A stretch of 64,000 nucleotides of DNA from Bradyrhizobium sp. CB3481 (lineage in GTDB: Bacteria; Pseudomonadota; Alphaproteobacteria; Rhizobiales; Xanthobacteraceae). Of the stretch, positions 54,119-60,451 are shown in pieces. The notes under the pieces are model-generated. The model ran no database searches. It had not been told where the DNA came from and worked only from the letters and a program-made list of their open reading frames with translations. The position numbers and the translations under genes are program-made. The stretch's first letter is position 1. Each line of letters begins with the position of its first letter. Location: positions 7,026,501 to 7,090,500 of the forward strand of contig NZ_CP121647.1 in assembly GCF_029714305.1 (NCBI RefSeq), read 5' to 3'.

Positions 54119-55861
54119 ATGGCTGTGCAAGAGGTCGCCGACGCATCGTCTTTTCGAGCTTCCGAACACACGGTGCGCTGCCCCATTTCTGCTGCAGCCA
54201 CTCCCGGATTTCGTCATTTCCTCGGCGCACCATCTCCTTCGCAGCGCTTCCGCGCCTTCGGTATCGATCCGCTCGCTTCGCCGTCGGATCATGCCAAGCT
54301 GCGTGGATTGATGCACCGCCTGTCGCGGCGAATGGATGCCGCCATCAAGTGGCCGCCACACCATGTTCAGTCGGCGGAATATTGGGAAAATCCATTCATC
54401 CCCTCCGGCTACACCTATCTGCTGCAGTTCATCGCGCATGATCTGGTGCACTCGGCGATCCCGCTCTCGGTGGCGGGAGGGCTCGGCCGAGGAACGGCCA
54501 ATGCGCGCCGCATGCCGCTTCGGCTGGAGACGCTGTATGGCAGCGGTCCGGTCGGATCGCCGCACATCTATGCGCTCGATGCGCCGAATGACGATCGCCG
54601 CACCAAGCTGCGGCTTGGCCGCATGCGCTGGAAAGAAAACGAGCCGGCATCCGGCTGCCCGTTCCGCGACATCGCCCGTGCCCAGGCAGAGAACGTGACG
54701 GGAATCGATCGCAGCATCGCCGGCGTTCGCGTGGCCCTCACCGAAGCCCTGGTCGCCGATCCGCGCAACGACGACCATGCCGTCATGTCACAGCTCACCG
54801 CGCTGTTTGCGCTGCTGCATAACGGGCTCGTCGACATCATCCGCCGCCAGGAAGGTCACGCGGTATCCAACGCCAGGTTCGGTGCCGCCTACAAGCGCTT
54901 CCTGTGCGCCCGCGGCGCGCTGACGGCCATCTATCACAACGTCATCCGCAACGACCTGATGCAGCGGGTGCTCCACCCGGCAGTTCACGCCAGCTATGGC
55001 AGGCCCGCCCCGCACTTCATCGACCGCCCCGATCCCGCCGCGAATGGGGCGATCGGCGATTGGGAAATTCCGCTCGAGTTCTCGCACGGCGCATTCCGTT
55101 TCGGTCACGCCATGGTGCGGCCGGAGTACCAGATCAACGACCTGTCCCTCCACGACCTCAACAACACGCTCGAAAAGAGCTCGATGAACGATCCGGCGAA
55201 CATGCCGCTCGACGAGACCTGGATGGTGCAATGGTCGCGCTTTTTCGAGATCGGCGGGTCGACGCCAAATTTCAGCCGCCGCATCGGACCGCACCTCAGC
55301 GACGGGCTCGGCAATGACCAGATCTTTCCGGCGTTCGACGAAACCGAACGCGTCGGCCTGCTCTATCGCGACCTGCTCGGCGCAAGCCTTGCCGGCATGT
55401 GGTCGGTAGACGCCCTGATCGCCGAGATCGGCGGCAGGCAGCCGCAGTTCATCGCCATGTCGCGCCTACTTGCCGACCGCGCCTACCGTGTCGATCAGCT
55501 TCGTGGATGGCTGCGCTCGGGACGCGCCTATGGCGCACTGACCGACGAGGACATCGAAACCCTTTCGAACGATCCTCCGCTGCCGTTCTTCATCCTGTTC
55601 GAGGCGATGCAGCAGACGGGCGGCCTGCACCTCGGGCTGCTCGGTTCGATCATCGTATCGGAGGTGATATTCGGGGCGCTCGCGAGCGACCCGCAATCGG
55701 CTCCCTGCCGTCCCCTCGCCGATCAATTGGATCTCGTTTCCCGTGAATTCTATCAGGCAAACGTACTTCGAGACATTCCAAACATTTCGAACATGGCGCA
55801 GCTCGTGGCGTTCACCACTGAAATTGCCGAGTTGCAGCAAGCCGTGCCCGCATTTCTGTGA
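54119..55861 (+). CDS. Animal-type (cyclooxygenase/myeloperoxidase-like) heme peroxidase
   Basis: A 580-residue protein of the peroxidase-cyclooxygenase superfamily. The distal site is H107/D108 in LLQFIAHDLVH, a conserved Arg lies in VADPRNDDHAVMSQ, and the proximal heme ligand is H330 in FRFGHAMVRPEYQIND. These are the hallmark residues of the family. There is no signal peptide, so the protein is probably cytoplasmic or exported by another route. The ATG at 54119 follows GAGAGCAGG. The next gene (55904) begins 42 bp later with a strong ribosome site, so they form an operon. It could oxidise a lipid, halide or peptide Tyr; the convergent YcaO operon makes a modified-peptide role worth testing. 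Confidence 0.85.
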   Translation: MAVQEVADASSFRASEHTVRCPISAAATPGFRHFLGAPSPSQRFRAFGIDPLASPSDHAKLRGLMHRLSRRMDAAIKWPPHHVQSAEYWENPFIPSGYTYLLQFIAHDLVHSAIPLSVAGGLGRGTANARRMPLRLETLYGSGPVGSPHIYALDAPNDDRRTKLRLGRMRWKENEPASGCPFRDIARAQAENVTGIDRSIAGVRVALTEALVADPRNDDHAVMSQLTALFALLHNGLVDIIRRQEGHAVSNARFGAAYKRFLCARGALTAIYHNVIRNDLMQRVLHPAVHASYGRPAPHFIDRPDPAANGAIGDWEIPLEFSHGAFRFGHAMVRPEYQINDLSLHDLNNTLEKSSMNDPANMPLDETWMVQWSRFFEIGGSTPNFSRRIGPHLSDGLGNDQIFPAFDETERVGLLYRDLLGASLAGMWSVDALIAEIGGRQPQFIAMSRLLADRAYRVDQLRGWLRSGRAYGALTDEDIETLSNDPPLPFFILFEAMQQTGGLHLGLLGSIIVSEVIFGALASDPQSAPCRPLADQLDLVSREFYQANVLRDIPNISNMAQLVAFTTEIAELQQAVPAFL

Positions 55862-55903
55862 GGTGGGATTCTCCGCTTCACCCAACCCGGAGGAGTAACG
55901 AAG

Positions 55904-56314
55904 ATGGCACTCGAGAGAATGCAAGTGACCAATCATGAGCGCTGGGGCAATCTGGTCAAGACCTGGTCGACCGGCAAGAACTATCTCGACGACGACAACG
56001 AGTATCCGATCCCGTCCACGGTCGAGGAGTTCAAGGAACAACTGGCCAAAGCCCAGGTGTTCATGACGGTTCCGGACCGCTTCACCAAGGTGAAGTTCGT
56101 CGAGCAGGAGATGGATACGATCGTGGTACGCTTGCCGCCCGCCTTCGCAATCGCCGATTCCGAAGAGAAGCTTAGCAAGCCGGGCGCGACCTATCCGCTT
56201 CCGCCGTTCTATAAGCGCCTGTTCAACGGCATGGACCCGGTAATTCCGGAAGCCGAAAAGTTCAAGGTGCATGCCGAGCGTATCGGCGACTACACCATCA
56301 GCTACTGCGCCTGA
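55904..56314 (+). CDS. Small unknown protein linked to a heme peroxidase
   Basis: A 136-residue protein I do not recognise. The ribosome site CGGAGGAG is strong, 8 bp ahead of the ATG. It is acidic-to-neutral, without signal or membrane helices, and contains NHERWGNLVKTWSTGKNYLD, VEEFKEQLAKAQVFMTVPDR and a C-terminal end GDYTISYCA. The tail concentrates Thr, Ser, Tyr and a single Cys at the very end. It may be an accessory or substrate protein of the peroxidase upstream, or a candidate precursor for the YcaO enzyme nearby. Both roles are speculative. It ends 15 bp from the convergent BTAD regulator. Confidence 0.65.
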   Translation: MALERMQVTNHERWGNLVKTWSTGKNYLDDDNEYPIPSTVEEFKEQLAKAQVFMTVPDRFTKVKFVEQEMDTIVVRLPPAFAIADSEEKLSKPGATYPLPPFYKRLFNGMDPVIPEAEKFKVHAERIGDYTISYCA

Positions 56315-56329
56315 TGAAGTAGTTGCGCG

Positions 56330-58429
56330 TCAGTGAACGATGCCATCGACAGGAAGCCCTCCGCCACGCAAGCTTTGGCGCAGGGCTTCCCATCGCTCTT
56401 TCACGCTGATGGGATGTGCTTGCATGACCCAGCGCGCAGCCGCCTCATCCGTCGGAGGAGACGATCCGACCCAGAATGAACGCAGGCCATTCACGAATCG
56501 TTGGACTTCCTGCAGAGCCAGCTCGCGTTCGCCAAGCTGGAACAGCGCGGCGGCCCGCCATGCCGGCAGCACCTTGTTGATGCCTTGCGCGCGATCGCAC
56601 GCCTCGATAGTCCCCCGATAGTCGCCACAGAAGAAGCGTATGGTGGCGTGATATGCCCATTCCAGATAGGAGGGAGCGGGTGAAAGCGCGAGCGACCGCT
56701 CGGCGCGAACGCGGGCGTCCTCGATCGATCCGCAGATTGCCGAGTAGTGCGCGCTGGACAGCAACGTCCACGGATCATTGTCATTGAGCTCACACGCCAG
56801 CTCCATATGCGGCGCGGCCTCAGCCTCGCGAAGCGCCATCACATAGGACCAGCCGCAGCACAGGTGCGCCCGGGAATCGACCGGGTCCAGTTGAACGGCG
56901 GTCTTCGCCAATTCGAGCGTAGCTTTTGCCTTGTCGAGATCCCGAAAGACGCCAGGATGCACCAGATGCTCGATGTTGTTCATCTGCACGAGGCTGCTGT
57001 AGCACGGCGAGAACCCGGGATTGTCGTGGATCGCATCGCGGAAGATGGCGACCGCTCGCCGCCAGCTCTCGGGATCGAATTTCGACATCAGATTCTGTCC
57101 GCGCAGCCAGCGGTCGTGCAGATCGAGCGAGACATCGGGCTCGCCGGCGAGCCGCATCAGTCGCTCGGTCGACAACTGCACATTCAATGAAGTCGCGATC
57201 CGGCGGATGATGCGCTGCTGCGTTTCAAACCAGTTGCCGAGACCGAGGCGGAAGCTTTCGCTCCAGATATAGATCCCGGTGGTGTCGTCGCGCAGCACCA
57301 TCACGATGTTGATTTCGGGACCCGCCTGATAGGCGGTGGTTTCGATGCAGTATTGCGGCGCCGTGCCCGAGGCGGGAAGCACGACGGCGGCCGGCGGACG
57401 GTCGACGACGCTCCATTCGCGGAAACGCACCAGACAGGCGGCGAGATGCTGAGAGAATCCCTGCACCAGATGGCTGTGATCCTCATCGACGCCGTGCATC
57501 GCAAAGGGCCGCAGCACCAGGCGCGTCTTGGCCGGCGGAGTGGACGCCGGCGTGAGCGGAGCCGCCGGCTGCAGGCCGGTGCCCCTGATCATCCGGATCG
57601 CGAATTCATCGTTCGCCGCCGAGGCGCCCCGGTCGGTCGGCGCGCGTTCCAGAATCCCGAGCTTGATGTTGGCGACGAGTTCTTCGGTGGCCGGTGACGG
57701 CTCCATCGCGTAATCGCGATCCAAAAGATCCCACAGCGATTTGTAGATGCGCAGCGCACCGGCGGTGTCGCCCTCTTCCGCATGCGCCCGCATCAGATAG
57801 CGGCAGGCATATTCATGCGTGGGATCGAGATTGACGATCGCCGCCGCGATCTTCTTCTTGCCCTCGGCCGGCACGCTGGCGGAGGTCAGGCCTTCGTCGA
57901 GATCTCGCATCAGCCGTTCGTGAATGGTCTGACGCTTGGCCAGCACCCAGACCCGAAACGACGGATCGAGATCGTCCATTCCTTCGAGCAGCCGCCCGTC
58001 GAGTTGCGGCGTGTTGAGCAGCAAGGGGTGAACCCGTCCGCTTTCGGCAAGTTGTAGCACACTTTCGATATCGACTTCGATGCGGCCGACGTCGAGACCG
58101 ACCATCAGCCGCTCCGCGACGAAGCCGTCATAGCCGGCCTCCTCGAGCATCGACCGCAATTCGCGAACCACCTGACGCAGCGAGGCACGCGCCTTTTCCT
58201 CGTCCGAACGGCTCCAGAGCAAACCGACCAGCCGTTCGCGGCTCTCCTGTCTCGTCTCCGACAGCGCGAGATAGCTCAGCACGGCGCCGGCCTTGCGGGT
58301 GCGCAGCTCGATCGGCCGGCCGTTGAAGCGCACACCAAGCCGCCCGACCAGCGATACCGACAGGCGCGGCGCGCTTTCGGGCGCTGCTGCTGCGTTGTCT
58401 GCGGTGATGGCGTTCGCGCTGGCCGGCAT
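56330..58429 (-). CDS. BTAD-type (SARP-like) regulator with TolB-like and TPR regions
   Basis: A 699-residue transcription regulator of several domains. Residues about 23-115 are an OmpR-like winged helix (FNGRPIELRTRKAGAVLSYL). About 120-262 is the bacterial transcriptional activation domain (DPTHEYACRYLMRAHAEEGD, ALRIYKSLWDLLDRDYAMEP). About 300-420 resembles the TolB-like/FlgO segment found in CadC-like regulators (RLVLRPFAMHGVDEDHSHLV, TTAYQAGPEINIVMVLRDDT). About 450-660 consists of TPR-like helices. Such regulators often sit beside the gene clusters they control; SARPs are typical of actinobacterial natural-product loci and less common here. It lies 40 bp downstream of the YcaO gene on the same strand, so the two are one operon. 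Confidence 0.8.
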   Translation of the reverse strand: MPASANAITADNAAAAPESAPRLSVSLVGRLGVRFNGRPIELRTRKAGAVLSYLALSETRQESRERLVGLLWSRSDEEKARASLRQVVRELRSMLEEAGYDGFVAERLMVGLDVGRIEVDIESVLQLAESGRVHPLLLNTPQLDGRLLEGMDDLDPSFRVWVLAKRQTIHERLMRDLDEGLTSASVPAEGKKKIAAAIVNLDPTHEYACRYLMRAHAEEGDTAGALRIYKSLWDLLDRDYAMEPSPATEELVANIKLGILERAPTDRGASAANDEFAIRMIRGTGLQPAAPLTPASTPPAKTRLVLRPFAMHGVDEDHSHLVQGFSQHLAACLVRFREWSVVDRPPAAVVLPASGTAPQYCIETTAYQAGPEINIVMVLRDDTTGIYIWSESFRLGLGNWFETQQRIIRRIATSLNVQLSTERLMRLAGEPDVSLDLHDRWLRGQNLMSKFDPESWRRAVAIFRDAIHDNPGFSPCYSSLVQMNNIEHLVHPGVFRDLDKAKATLELAKTAVQLDPVDSRAHLCCGWSYVMALREAEAAPHMELACELNDNDPWTLLSSAHYSAICGSIEDARVRAERSLALSPAPSYLEWAYHATIRFFCGDYRGTIEACDRAQGINKVLPAWRAAALFQLGERELALQEVQRFVNGLRSFWVGSSPPTDEAAARWVMQAHPISVKERWEALRQSLRGGGLPVDGIVH

Positions 58430-58469
58430 TGCAACGGTTTCCGGGAACCGATTGGTTAATATCCTCAGT

Positions 58470-59831
58470 CTATATCAAAGAAACGCCCCCGGTATAGGTT
58501 GCGCCGCCTCCGGTTAGCGTAATCATATCCTGCAGCCGAGGGGTGATGATTTCGGATGGCTCGAGTTGCAGGCCCGGAGCGATCACGCGGATCACCGGCA
58601 CGGCGAAGCGTTCGCGCATGAGATCGGTACAAAATGTATCGATTCCCAGTTTTTCCAAACGCTGTACGATCAGTCTAAATATGACGCTCGCTTCAGTTGC
58701 GGAAAAGGACAGATGGACTGCGTGCTCCGCAACGGGTTGCAGCAGTCTGCACTGATCGGCATTGATCGCCGCGCGATGCAGGTGGATGCGATCCTGCGCG
58801 TTGAGCGCATCATCACCGCGCTCGCTGCGCTTGGCGGCGACGACGACGTCGGCCAGTTCGCCCTGGCACATTTCCAGAATCGCGGAGCGAACTGCGGCCT
58901 CGAGCGCGGGACGCGCGGCGAGGCCGAAGGCAAAATCGCCGCCATCCGCCCGGCACGACACGGCGGCAACGCAGGGCACGCCGATGTCAGTCGTGATGTC
59001 GAGCAGCCATGTCCGGCGCGGTGTCGATACGCCGTGCCGAAGCTTCTGCAATAGTTCTTCCGCCGCCGCACTGGCATCGTGCTGCGGCGGAATCGATCGG
59101 GCCAACCGACCGCCCCGCCACCACAGGCTGGCCGCATCGCGTTCGATCAATTCCAGCAGGCCGTGCAGGGCTGCAGCGTCCCGCGAGGATCCGGCGGCCG
59201 AACCGATGCTCAAGGGAAATGGCGGCGGGAAATCGCGGTGCGCCGGCGGACGGCGCAGGCAGATATCCGCCGGAAGCCACACCTCGCCACCATCCGTCAA
59301 CCGAGTTGCACGGTACCAGGAAAGCGCTCGCTCCGGTTGAATACGACGCTCCGAGAGCTGCGCCACCAGCTCCAGCGCGTTCGGGCCGAGTTTTCCACGC
59401 CAATCGCCCTCAGGGAGATCGAGCAGCAGATCCGTTCCGGTCAGCAGCTGAGAGAGGTACTCTATTCCCTCGCCAATGCAGCCCTGAAACGCTTCCTGCA
59501 ATGTGATGCCGACGCCGGAAACGCCAATGATGGGGCTTCCGTCGTGCAACGAATCAGCAAGCGCCGGATCAAACTGCGCACCAAAGCTGATCAGGCCGGG
59601 CGCCGTGGGCGCCGCCAGTTCGAACACCCGCGCAAACCGGGAGGCCGCGATCAGTAAATGTGCACGATTCGTTGTTTCCGGATCGGTCCGGCTCGCGGAT
59701 TCAGCTTCATATTCCAGCGCCTGCAGCACACTTCTGGCTTCGTGATCGCTGGCGGCATCCAATGCGTTGCCAAGAAGCAACGATGCCGCGCGCGCAAACA
59801 ATTCCTGCATCGAATTTACGGTACCGCTCAC
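58470..59831 (-). CDS. YcaO-domain protein
   Basis: A 453-residue protein with a YcaO fold, ATP-dependent enzymes that convert backbone amides to azolines, thioamides or amidines. The nucleotide-binding motifs are kept: GCIGEGIEYLS (E121, E124), SAAGSSRDAAALHGLLELIE with R231 and D232, and AAVRSAILEMCQ (Q323). The C-terminus ends TGGGATYTGGVSLI and lacks the Pro-rich PxPxP end of azoline cyclodehydratases; no TfuA or E1-like partner is adjacent. The N-terminal 80 residues are extra. The GTG at 59831 follows TGAGGTCACC; an ATG seven codons inside is an alternative. Operon with the BTAD regulator; a divergent small gene starts 66 bp away. Confidence 0.82.
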   Translation of the reverse strand: MSGTVNSMQELFARAASLLLGNALDAASDHEARSVLQALEYEAESASRTDPETTNRAHLLIAASRFARVFELAAPTAPGLISFGAQFDPALADSLHDGSPIIGVSGVGITLQEAFQGCIGEGIEYLSQLLTGTDLLLDLPEGDWRGKLGPNALELVAQLSERRIQPERALSWYRATRLTDGGEVWLPADICLRRPPAHRDFPPPFPLSIGSAAGSSRDAAALHGLLELIERDAASLWWRGGRLARSIPPQHDASAAAEELLQKLRHGVSTPRRTWLLDITTDIGVPCVAAVSCRADGGDFAFGLAARPALEAAVRSAILEMCQGELADVVVAAKRSERGDDALNAQDRIHLHRAAINADQCRLLQPVAEHAVHLSFSATEASVIFRLIVQRLEKLGIDTFCTDLMRERFAVPVIRVIAPGLQLEPSEIITPRLQDMITLTGGGATYTGGVSLI

Positions 59832-59896
59832 GGTGACCTCACGACTTGCCGTGCAGACTCGCGAACGAGAGGCCAGCCCTCGTCCTGGAGGAACTT

Positions 59897-60451
59897 ATGC
59901 TCGCGAAAGCCTTCGTCATAGCCATGGCGGCAGATATTGCCCGCTCGGATTACGCCAAGCCGACCTTGATTCGTGGCCGAAGCCGGGAGTGGCTGATCGC
60001 CTGCCGCTGGGGACCGGAAGGGGAATACTTGTCGATTGCGACAGCTGGCCCGATCACAGAGCCTCTCGCAGTGGTTGCACCGCAGTCGATCACGCCGATC
60101 CATAGTTTGGTCGGCCTGCTGGTTTCCGAATCGGAAAAGCAATCCACCAGCACATTCCTGCTGGTGCGCCAGCCGCCGGCGGCAATCGAGCTTGCTGGCA
60201 CGTTTTTCCCCGCCGATGGATATGTATTGCTGCAAGACCACGGCGATATTCATCTCGTCTGCAAGGCGCGCTACTCGCATAGCTGCGGCTGGCTCGACGG
60301 CAAGGAGATCCGCAAGGACATTCCCGATCCGGCGCCCTATTCGGCCGAGGCCATGTCCTGGCACATCGAGGCGACGCGCCGTGACTGGATCGGCGAGTTT
60401 ATTCCCGGCAGCCGGCCGCCGGAGCGGCTGGCGATTCGCGCGACCGGCTGA
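59897..60451 (+). CDS. Hypothetical protein divergent from the YcaO gene
   Basis: A 184-residue soluble protein of no recognised family. GGAGGAACTT precedes the ATG at 59897, which makes this start clear; an upstream in-frame Met would overlap the promoter region. Segments include SREWLIACRWGPEGEYLSIA, LVCKARYSHSCGWLDGKEIR and SWHIEATRRDWIGEFIPGSR, with several Cys and Trp. The 65-bp gap to the YcaO gene must hold both promoters, which suggests joint control. It converges with an XRE regulator gene. Confidence 0.6.
   Translation: MLAKAFVIAMAADIARSDYAKPTLIRGRSREWLIACRWGPEGEYLSIATAGPITEPLAVVAPQSITPIHSLVGLLVSESEKQSTSTFLLVRQPPAAIELAGTFFPADGYVLLQDHGDIHLVCKARYSHSCGWLDGKEIRKDIPDPAPYSAEAMSWHIEATRRDWIGEFIPGSRPPERLAIRATG

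Follow-up and report, generated by a model that had tools for sequence, protein, structure and literature searches.

A conserved YcaO, heme peroxidase and BTAD regulator unit in Bradyrhizobium and its relatives with a candidate substrate protein bearing a penultimate cysteine

Introduction

Few enzymes alter peptide backbones in ways as unusual as YcaO enzymes do, and the targets of many stand-alone YcaOs have yet to be identified. In this study, we analyzed a locus of Bradyrhizobium sp. CB3481 in which a stand-alone YcaO is encoded together with an animal-type heme peroxidase, a 136-residue protein (s136) and a BTAD/TolB-like/TPR regulator. The locus lies in a 64,000-nucleotide stretch of contig NZ_CP121647.1 (positions 7,026,501 to 7,090,500 of the forward strand), which is called the window here and to which the coordinates below refer. 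The four genes form one real conserved unit, and s136 ends in an invariant penultimate cysteine, Cys135. We consider it moderately likely that the unit is a peroxidase-linked YcaO modification system in which s136 is the ribosomal precursor or substrate.

The closest described enzymes are LynD and TruD of the thiazole/oxazole-modified microcin (TOMM) pathways. The window YcaO has the YcaO fold and the ATP-site motifs in common with them, they are its best profile and fold matches, and cysteine is the modified residue there, as it would be here. A C-terminal PxPxP is typical of TOMM YcaOs. In contrast, the window YcaO lacks a PxPxP end, an E1-like leader-binding part (whether fused or separate) and a flavin mononucleotide (FMN) dehydrogenase, and its candidate precursor is a conserved, folded 136-aa protein with one C-terminal Cys. 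Precursors of the nitrile hydratase leader peptide (NHLP) type, described by TIGR03793, resemble s136 by eye in an LP-containing strand and a short Cys tail; however, s136 is not matched by TIGR03793, and the profile comparison is not significant.

Some YcaOs act on a protein rather than on a small peptide. The YcaO-TfuA pair of methanogens reportedly acts on McrA, forming a thioamide, and according to parts of one report the stand-alone YcaO of Escherichia coli acts on uL16 (PMC13063428). The window system is like these in having a protein as the target, but its likely target is encoded next door together with an oxidase and a regulator, it has no TfuA, and the C-terminal Cys of the target is invariant. 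A stand-alone YcaO with its own candidate precursor is a kind already known: in streptamidine-type systems, as presented in parts of PMC8442711, a stand-alone YcaO clade is tied to its own precursor family. Those systems differ from ours in being actinobacterial, with short precursors and amidine chemistry, and the word "peroxidase" is absent from the main text of that paper. What is new, as far as our searches show, is the pairing with a heme peroxidase and the reduction of the core to one C-terminal residue. No description of a YcaO joined with a heme peroxidase was found in PubMed Central (PMC) full text, outside which subscription journals mostly lie, and the same text held nothing on a heme peroxidase with a precursor of a ribosomally synthesized and post-translationally modified peptide (RiPP) or on a YcaO with a penultimate cysteine. 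Parts of PMC8776678 mention a YcaO and a peroxidase, apart from each other, and that peroxidase is of the Dyp type.

Results

In the window, the genes for the peroxidase (54119..55861, plus strand; 580 aa, ATG at 54119, no obvious signal peptide by eye) and s136 (55904..56314, plus strand) converge on those for the YcaO (58470..59831, minus strand; 453 aa, PF02624) and the regulator (56330..58429, minus strand; 699 aa), which follows ycaO on that strand. A gene for a 184-aa protein (59897..60451, plus strand) diverges from ycaO, 65 bp from the ycaO start. An earlier reading made from the letters alone (the sequence-only reading) had described these five genes, and all are present as it described them. 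Gene calls throughout are open reading frames; a codon-position GC filter was applied only in the penultimate-Cys background count and in the survey of NHLP-like small proteins described below.

That the genes form one system, as the same reading proposed, is borne out by the genome searches. The s136 profile matched 21 of the 297 genomes of an order sample, at 22 loci, where the BTAD gene is present in 22, an intact family ycaO in 21 and the peroxidase gene in 19, well above anything expected by chance. Across many Hyphomicrobiales families the unit recurs, with identities as low as 14-25%. All 12 YcaO relatives from named genomes, which are close kin, carry the five genes arranged as in the window; the close relatives include B. 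archetypum, B. valentinum, B. jicamae and B. lablabi. The genome of CB3481 itself contains a second complete copy with two tandem s136 genes, at 34-42% identity (G000:C1:7782181-7788359, L023), and two other genomes (G027, G095) carry further copies. In a phylum sample, the s136 profile matched 6 of 398 genomes, all inside the order; a database match in Minwuia thermotolerans (Minwuiales) extends the family past it. The unit is also found in Mesorhizobium huakuii on plasmid pMhuNZP2235a (NZ_CP139859.1), where it comprises WP_322419535 (peroxidase family protein), WP_322419534, WP_322419533 and WP_322419532 (YcaO-like), and can therefore be plasmid-borne. A plasmid search with the window s136 itself gave no match, despite the diverged s136 on this one plasmid. 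The best candidates of each genome were scored in the genome searches (s136, at most 13 in the order and 10 in the phylum sample; YcaO, at most 5 and 4; peroxidase, at most 4), so members can be missed; one locus (L129) escaped the s136 profile search and was found through its YcaO.

Independent occurrence of the peroxidase-s136 pair and the YcaO operon in most relatives, named beforehand as the observation that would speak against one system, was not seen. Over the 26 YcaO places of the order sample that score at least 362 bits, s136 is present at 23 and the peroxidase at 20. The six places without a peroxidase are three loci that keep s136 (L059-L061), an orphan ycaO in G138 (L095), a locus of G542 where ycaO is accompanied by BTAD alone (L098) and a locus of G569 (L099). 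At the main locus of G138 (L100, 10700-11300), stops interrupt the orthologous ycaO, and the peroxidase, s136, BTAD and 184-aa genes are intact. The second family ycaO of that genome, at L095, could serve the broken locus in trans.

An open-frame comparison of 27 divergent loci gave the same picture, with ycaO in 27, the peroxidase in 26, the BTAD regulator in 26 and, by BLAST, s136 in 18; the remaining s136 genes were found by profile or by their tail. After frames judged antisense to the four genes were set aside, no fifth family occurred in more than 3 of the 27 loci, although other small divergent genes could escape BLAST just as s136 did in loci beyond those 18. E1-like proteins, FMN dehydrogenases and TfuA were not found as families shared among the 27 loci, whose genes outside the window were not scanned singly. 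In the window, no E1-like partner was found among eight genes compared with Pfam or seven compared with NCBIfam; the sequence-only reading had seen no TOMM dehydrogenase or TfuA nearby, and the same scans agree. Transporter-like flanking genes are common to three related loci by eye. Typically, peroxidase-s136 and BTAD-ycaO run toward each other; ycaO is displaced in six loci (L024, L064, L096, L097, L103, L146), and one of these, L103, shows no BTAD match across 18 kb. Peroxidase and s136 are same-strand neighbors wherever both occur. For 24 loci, leaving out near copies (L011-L020) and the locus with the broken ycaO (L100), the distance matrices of the four genes correlate in all six pairs (r 0.72-0.89). 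These correlations were rejected as proof of interaction, since joint inheritance alone predicts them.

The most telling feature of s136 is its C-terminal tail, RIGDYTISYCA (56279..56311, plus strand). Members of the family end in R-[IVL]-x-[DE]-Y-x4-C-x-COOH. Five residues (Y97, Y103, R126, Y130 and C135) are the only invariant ones among 59 aligned s136 proteins, and just the R, Y and C of the tail remain so in 18 more divergent ones; the tail is preserved while s136 pairs drop to 14% identity. The motif forms the C-terminal end in 165 of 177 proteins retrieved from databases, a consistency check rather than an independent test, since the retrieval profiles contain the tail. Several of the other 12 stop before the tail or overrun it, as truncated or frame-shifted copies would, and one of them (P0177) was the weakest match of its search. 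The tail Cys is the sole cysteine in 137 of the 165 motif-bearing proteins, and the residue after it can be any of 14 kinds. As background, a penultimate Cys was found in 11 of 279 small open frames, 7 of the 11 being s136 or other precursors named here; this count does not include L101, whose ycaO was lost in gene picking, or the small gene of L102, which was masked by another frame. The penultimate Cys is probably the site of a chemical modification.

The s136 protein itself resembles no described family. No match beyond chance-level E values was found in Pfam, NCBIfam or PHROGs (best E 0.02 for Pfam/NCBIfam). A known domain was rejected as a reading, the best hit among PDB sequences having an E value of 1.2 and the folds in PDB and BFVD giving nothing convincing. 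The structural model is confident, with a predicted local distance difference test score (pLDDT) of 92.3 and a predicted template modeling score (pTM) of 0.83; a Foldseek search returned no match at E≤0.001 in PDB or in the viral models of BFVD. The proposal of a candidate biosynthetic or modification locus stands insofar as the unit is real, but the sequence-only reading overlooked the invariant penultimate Cys, which turns a candidate locus into a concrete substrate hypothesis.

Small proteins with similar ends occur at other YcaO loci. A second peroxidase-BTAD-YcaO group (L101, L102, L149) lies on a separate branch (support 97/96), and in these loci the small gene beside the peroxidase gene encodes a protein ending in ..KRCR, ..TKCR or ..RRCR. 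Similarity between its proteins and s136 could not be detected (hhalign probability 0.1%, with a profile of three sequences), and small proteins that look unrelated but end in Cys-Arg give independent support for the significance of the tail. Two YcaO loci without a peroxidase (L104, L105) have neighbors ending in ..GCR, and four other YcaO loci of the order (L106, L116, L119, L112) have NHLP-like small proteins with a Cys a few residues from the end. TIGR03793 matched weakly and always under its cut-off at L106 (E 0.03), L112 (E 0.003) and L104 (E 0.015); of the four NHLP-like loci, the scan covered L106 and L112. By eye the tails align as ..RIGDYTISYC-A, ..MLGTMAVLGC- and ..LLGAVTVRGC-R, and common descent of s136 and the NHLP-like proteins is a lead only. 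The NHLP-like set and the small proteins of L101, L102 and L149 show no significant similarity to each other (hhalign probability 0.4%). Clear membership of s136 in the NHLP family was rejected, as TIGR03793 is not listed for the 59 s136 proteins and hhalign gives 4%. Divergent NHLP-like proteins, with ends such as LGTMAVLGCCRPVR or ALGTCYYDDLPE, were noticed at L106, L116, L119, L112, L120 and L121, and these possibly represent undescribed precursor families.

The YcaO matches PF02624 at 178.4 bits (E 3e-52), and the SagD model of NCBIfam gives 125.9 bits, under its cut-off of 219. Four residues of the ATP-site motifs (E121, E227, E230 and R231) are invariant in 26 aligned YcaOs. The best profile matches are LynD (E 1.9e-42), TruD and MusD, the title of whose structure reads ATP-dependent peptidase, followed by MJ1094 and the protein of 6ci7 (Methanopyrus kandleri by its title); the model (pLDDT 91.7) has LynD 4v1v as its best structural match. 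The C-terminal PxPxP does not occur in the aligned YcaOs, which have ends of the type ..GGVSLI, ..NVPLH or ..RVELY. A YcaO phylogeny had been suggested as a check on whether the enzyme forms its own clade, and it does form a group: 42 of 74 rows lie on one side of a 98/94 branch. In 36 of these both peroxidase and s136 are present, and in three (L059-L061) s136 without the peroxidase; the other three are the YcaOs of G542 and G569 and the orphan of G138. The 26 YcaO places of the order sample at or above 362 bits are followed by one of 190 bits, but this gap is not the border of the group, since three loci with s136-type tails (L103, L129, L146) score 175-216 and belong to the group by the tree. 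YcaOs of the phylum sample from beyond the order scored at most 133 bits.

The peroxidase matches PF03098 at 29.9 bits (curated cut-off 25). Its heme and catalytic residues, described earlier as intact, are indeed invariant in 23 of 23 aligned peroxidases (Gln104/His108/Asp109, Arg217 and His331, counted from a TTG one codon upstream of the ATG). The distal and proximal roles of His108, Arg217 and His331, which we take from the family, would give the protein the distal His, distal Arg and proximal His of the animal-type family, along with the heme-linking Asp, as judged from conserved positions. Lactoperoxidase and myeloperoxidase share with it the regions around the distal His and Asp, the distal Arg and the proximal His; in contrast, the window peroxidase is bacterial, and its profile matches entries with those names at just 21-29 bits. 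A PDB search with the single peroxidase sequence gave no match. Peroxidases scoring at least 314 bits occur at 22 places, all of them beside an s136. The next score below is 260 bits, and none of 11 lower-scoring peroxidases (L177-L187) has an s136, YcaO or BTAD match within at most 1.5 kb on each side. In G709, G666 and G690 (L059-L061) no peroxidase match was found anywhere, and ycaO, BTAD and the s136 tail are intact; as these three belong to one genus, this is probably one loss. Two loci of the same family as L059 (L031, L056) have flanking genes in common with it and keep the peroxidase. Among individual members, the cluster peroxidase of G783 is split over two reading frames beside an intact s136 (L129:3423-5092), that at L054:9645-11378 starts with the Tat-signal-like TRRQFMVGA, unlike other members, and G416 has another peroxidase behind ycaO, of a more usual bacterial type (L032:13805-15355).

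The regulator matches PF03704 (BTAD) at 41.9 bits. BTAD was rejected as a specific mark of the system: 17 of 29 other YcaO genes have matches to its profile nearby, although this profile picks up related cyclase/TPR regulators too. A local addition, the 184-aa gene is confined to the Bradyrhizobium/Xanthobacteraceae group and was found in 12 of 12 close loci, where its product is 76-96% conserved, and in G138; the protein has no family match in Pfam or NCBIfam. Its absence from all 18 more distant loci led us to reject it as a substrate or core part. Of the suggested co-occurrence of four to five genes, the part concerning four genes holds in distant loci and that concerning the fifth does not. 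A defense system was rejected, as PADLOC returned generic TPR matches to the regulator and nothing else, and PHROGs gave no match for the four genes scanned (all but the regulator).

Discussion

The data show the gene unit, the conserved catalytic residues, the invariant tail and the loss of the peroxidase from genomes that keep YcaO and tail; from them we infer that s136 is the substrate, as well as the chemistry, the sequence of reactions and the role of the product. The s136 gene lies beside, and is conserved together with, that of the presumed modifying enzyme, at 23 of 26 YcaO loci of at least 362 bits. The s136 protein may thus be a folded precursor or substrate, with its long N-terminal part serving as the leader and its last residues as the core. 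The YcaO would bind ATP and phosphorylate, and so activate, the backbone amide just before Cys135. In the simplest case the thiol of Cys135 would close a thiazoline; thioamide formation or cleavage are alternatives that may proceed through the same activation. The peroxidase would then oxidize the product, for example from azoline to azole or at the conserved Tyr130, replacing the flavin dehydrogenase of classical azole pathways, and the BTAD protein may regulate the system. Because three genomes (G709, G666, G690) keep ycaO, BTAD and the tail without a peroxidase, the peroxidase seems to act late and to be dispensable. Cross-linking of Tyr by the peroxidase, which the sequence-only reading brought up, is possible but not favored, as these genomes keep the same Tyr and Cys. 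More tentatively, and with somewhat less than even confidence, we propose a new class of ribosomally encoded modification, in which a stand-alone YcaO and a heme peroxidase jointly turn the C-terminal Cys-X of a small folded protein into a new group, such as a thiazole, a thioamide, or a Tyr-Cys linked warhead or cofactor; at least two dissimilar precursor families would then have converged on, or kept, the same end.

If this mechanism is true, it would be, as far as our searches show, the first YcaO pathway with an animal-type heme peroxidase as its tailoring oxidase. It would also provide a bacterial subfamily of these peroxidases with a concrete substrate and show to what extent a precursor core can shrink. 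For this YcaO the likely target, residue and oxidizing partner can all be named. Considering the occurrence of the unit in Bradyrhizobium and on a Mesorhizobium plasmid, the product, which might be an antibiotic, a metallophore or a cofactor bound to protein, may matter in soil or symbiosis.

Several findings weigh against s136 as the precursor. Conservation extends over its full length, which is not the case for most RiPP precursors, and a single residue would make up the core. Family YcaOs occur in G542 and G569 with no s136 match at E≤0.1 anywhere in the genome, both being draft genomes and the G569 contig ending about 1 kb from ycaO, and the orphan ycaO of G138 has no partner within its 19 kb. 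No protease or exporter family is common to more than 3 of the 27 loci, although such genes may lie elsewhere in the genomes. The ycaO-s136 pair has the weakest distance correlation (r 0.72, compared with 0.82 for peroxidase-s136 and 0.89 for peroxidase-BTAD), comparing the profiles of s136 and the NHLP-like set yields no significant similarity (hhalign probability 4%), and the high frequency of the tail among retrieved proteins is no independent test, as the profiles used contain the tail.

Some of these observations would suit a different role for s136. In DsrC/TusE, a penultimate Cys sits on a mobile arm, and s136 might likewise be a sulfur carrier or partner that hands sulfur to a YcaO thioamidating an unlinked target. 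The penultimate position of what is the only cysteine in 137 of 165 members, the variable last residue, the conservation over the whole length and the lack of TfuA or another sulfur-donor family common to the loci would all fit such a partner protein. We nevertheless consider it unlikely, as dissimilar small proteins share the same Cys-X end at related YcaO loci, as expected of precursors, and two tandem s136 genes occur in the organism's own genome. Furthermore, no PDB fold matches s136 at E≤0.001, which does not prove a different fold, and no DsrC is among the 24 weak matches listed.

Slightly less probable still is that s136 is mainly a partner of the peroxidase, which would form a cross-link between Tyr130 and Cys135 (or involving Tyr97 or Tyr103) while the YcaO acts elsewhere. 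The two genes are same-strand neighbors where both are present, the distances of s136 track those of the peroxidase (r 0.82) better than those of ycaO (0.72), and Y97, Y103 and Y130 are invariant in the 59 s136 proteins; against this, the genomes lacking a peroxidase match (G709, G666, G690) retain s136, its Tyr and Cys, and the YcaO. An ordinary NHLP-type azole/azoline RiPP pathway, with export and processing unlinked and the peroxidase for self-protection only, is improbable: although the YcaO is nearest to the TOMM cyclodehydratases LynD and TruD and small proteins resembling NHLP precursors lie at other YcaO loci in the order, the loci have no E1-like partner, dehydrogenase or protease family in common, the core has a single cysteine, and the NHLP similarity is not significant.

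Two further observations concern other YcaO loci. At one (L115:6111-6473), a small gene before the YcaO gene encodes a protein whose end consists of repeated GCRGCRGCGG units, an azole-type core; at another (L145), a TfuA is annotated beside the YcaO.

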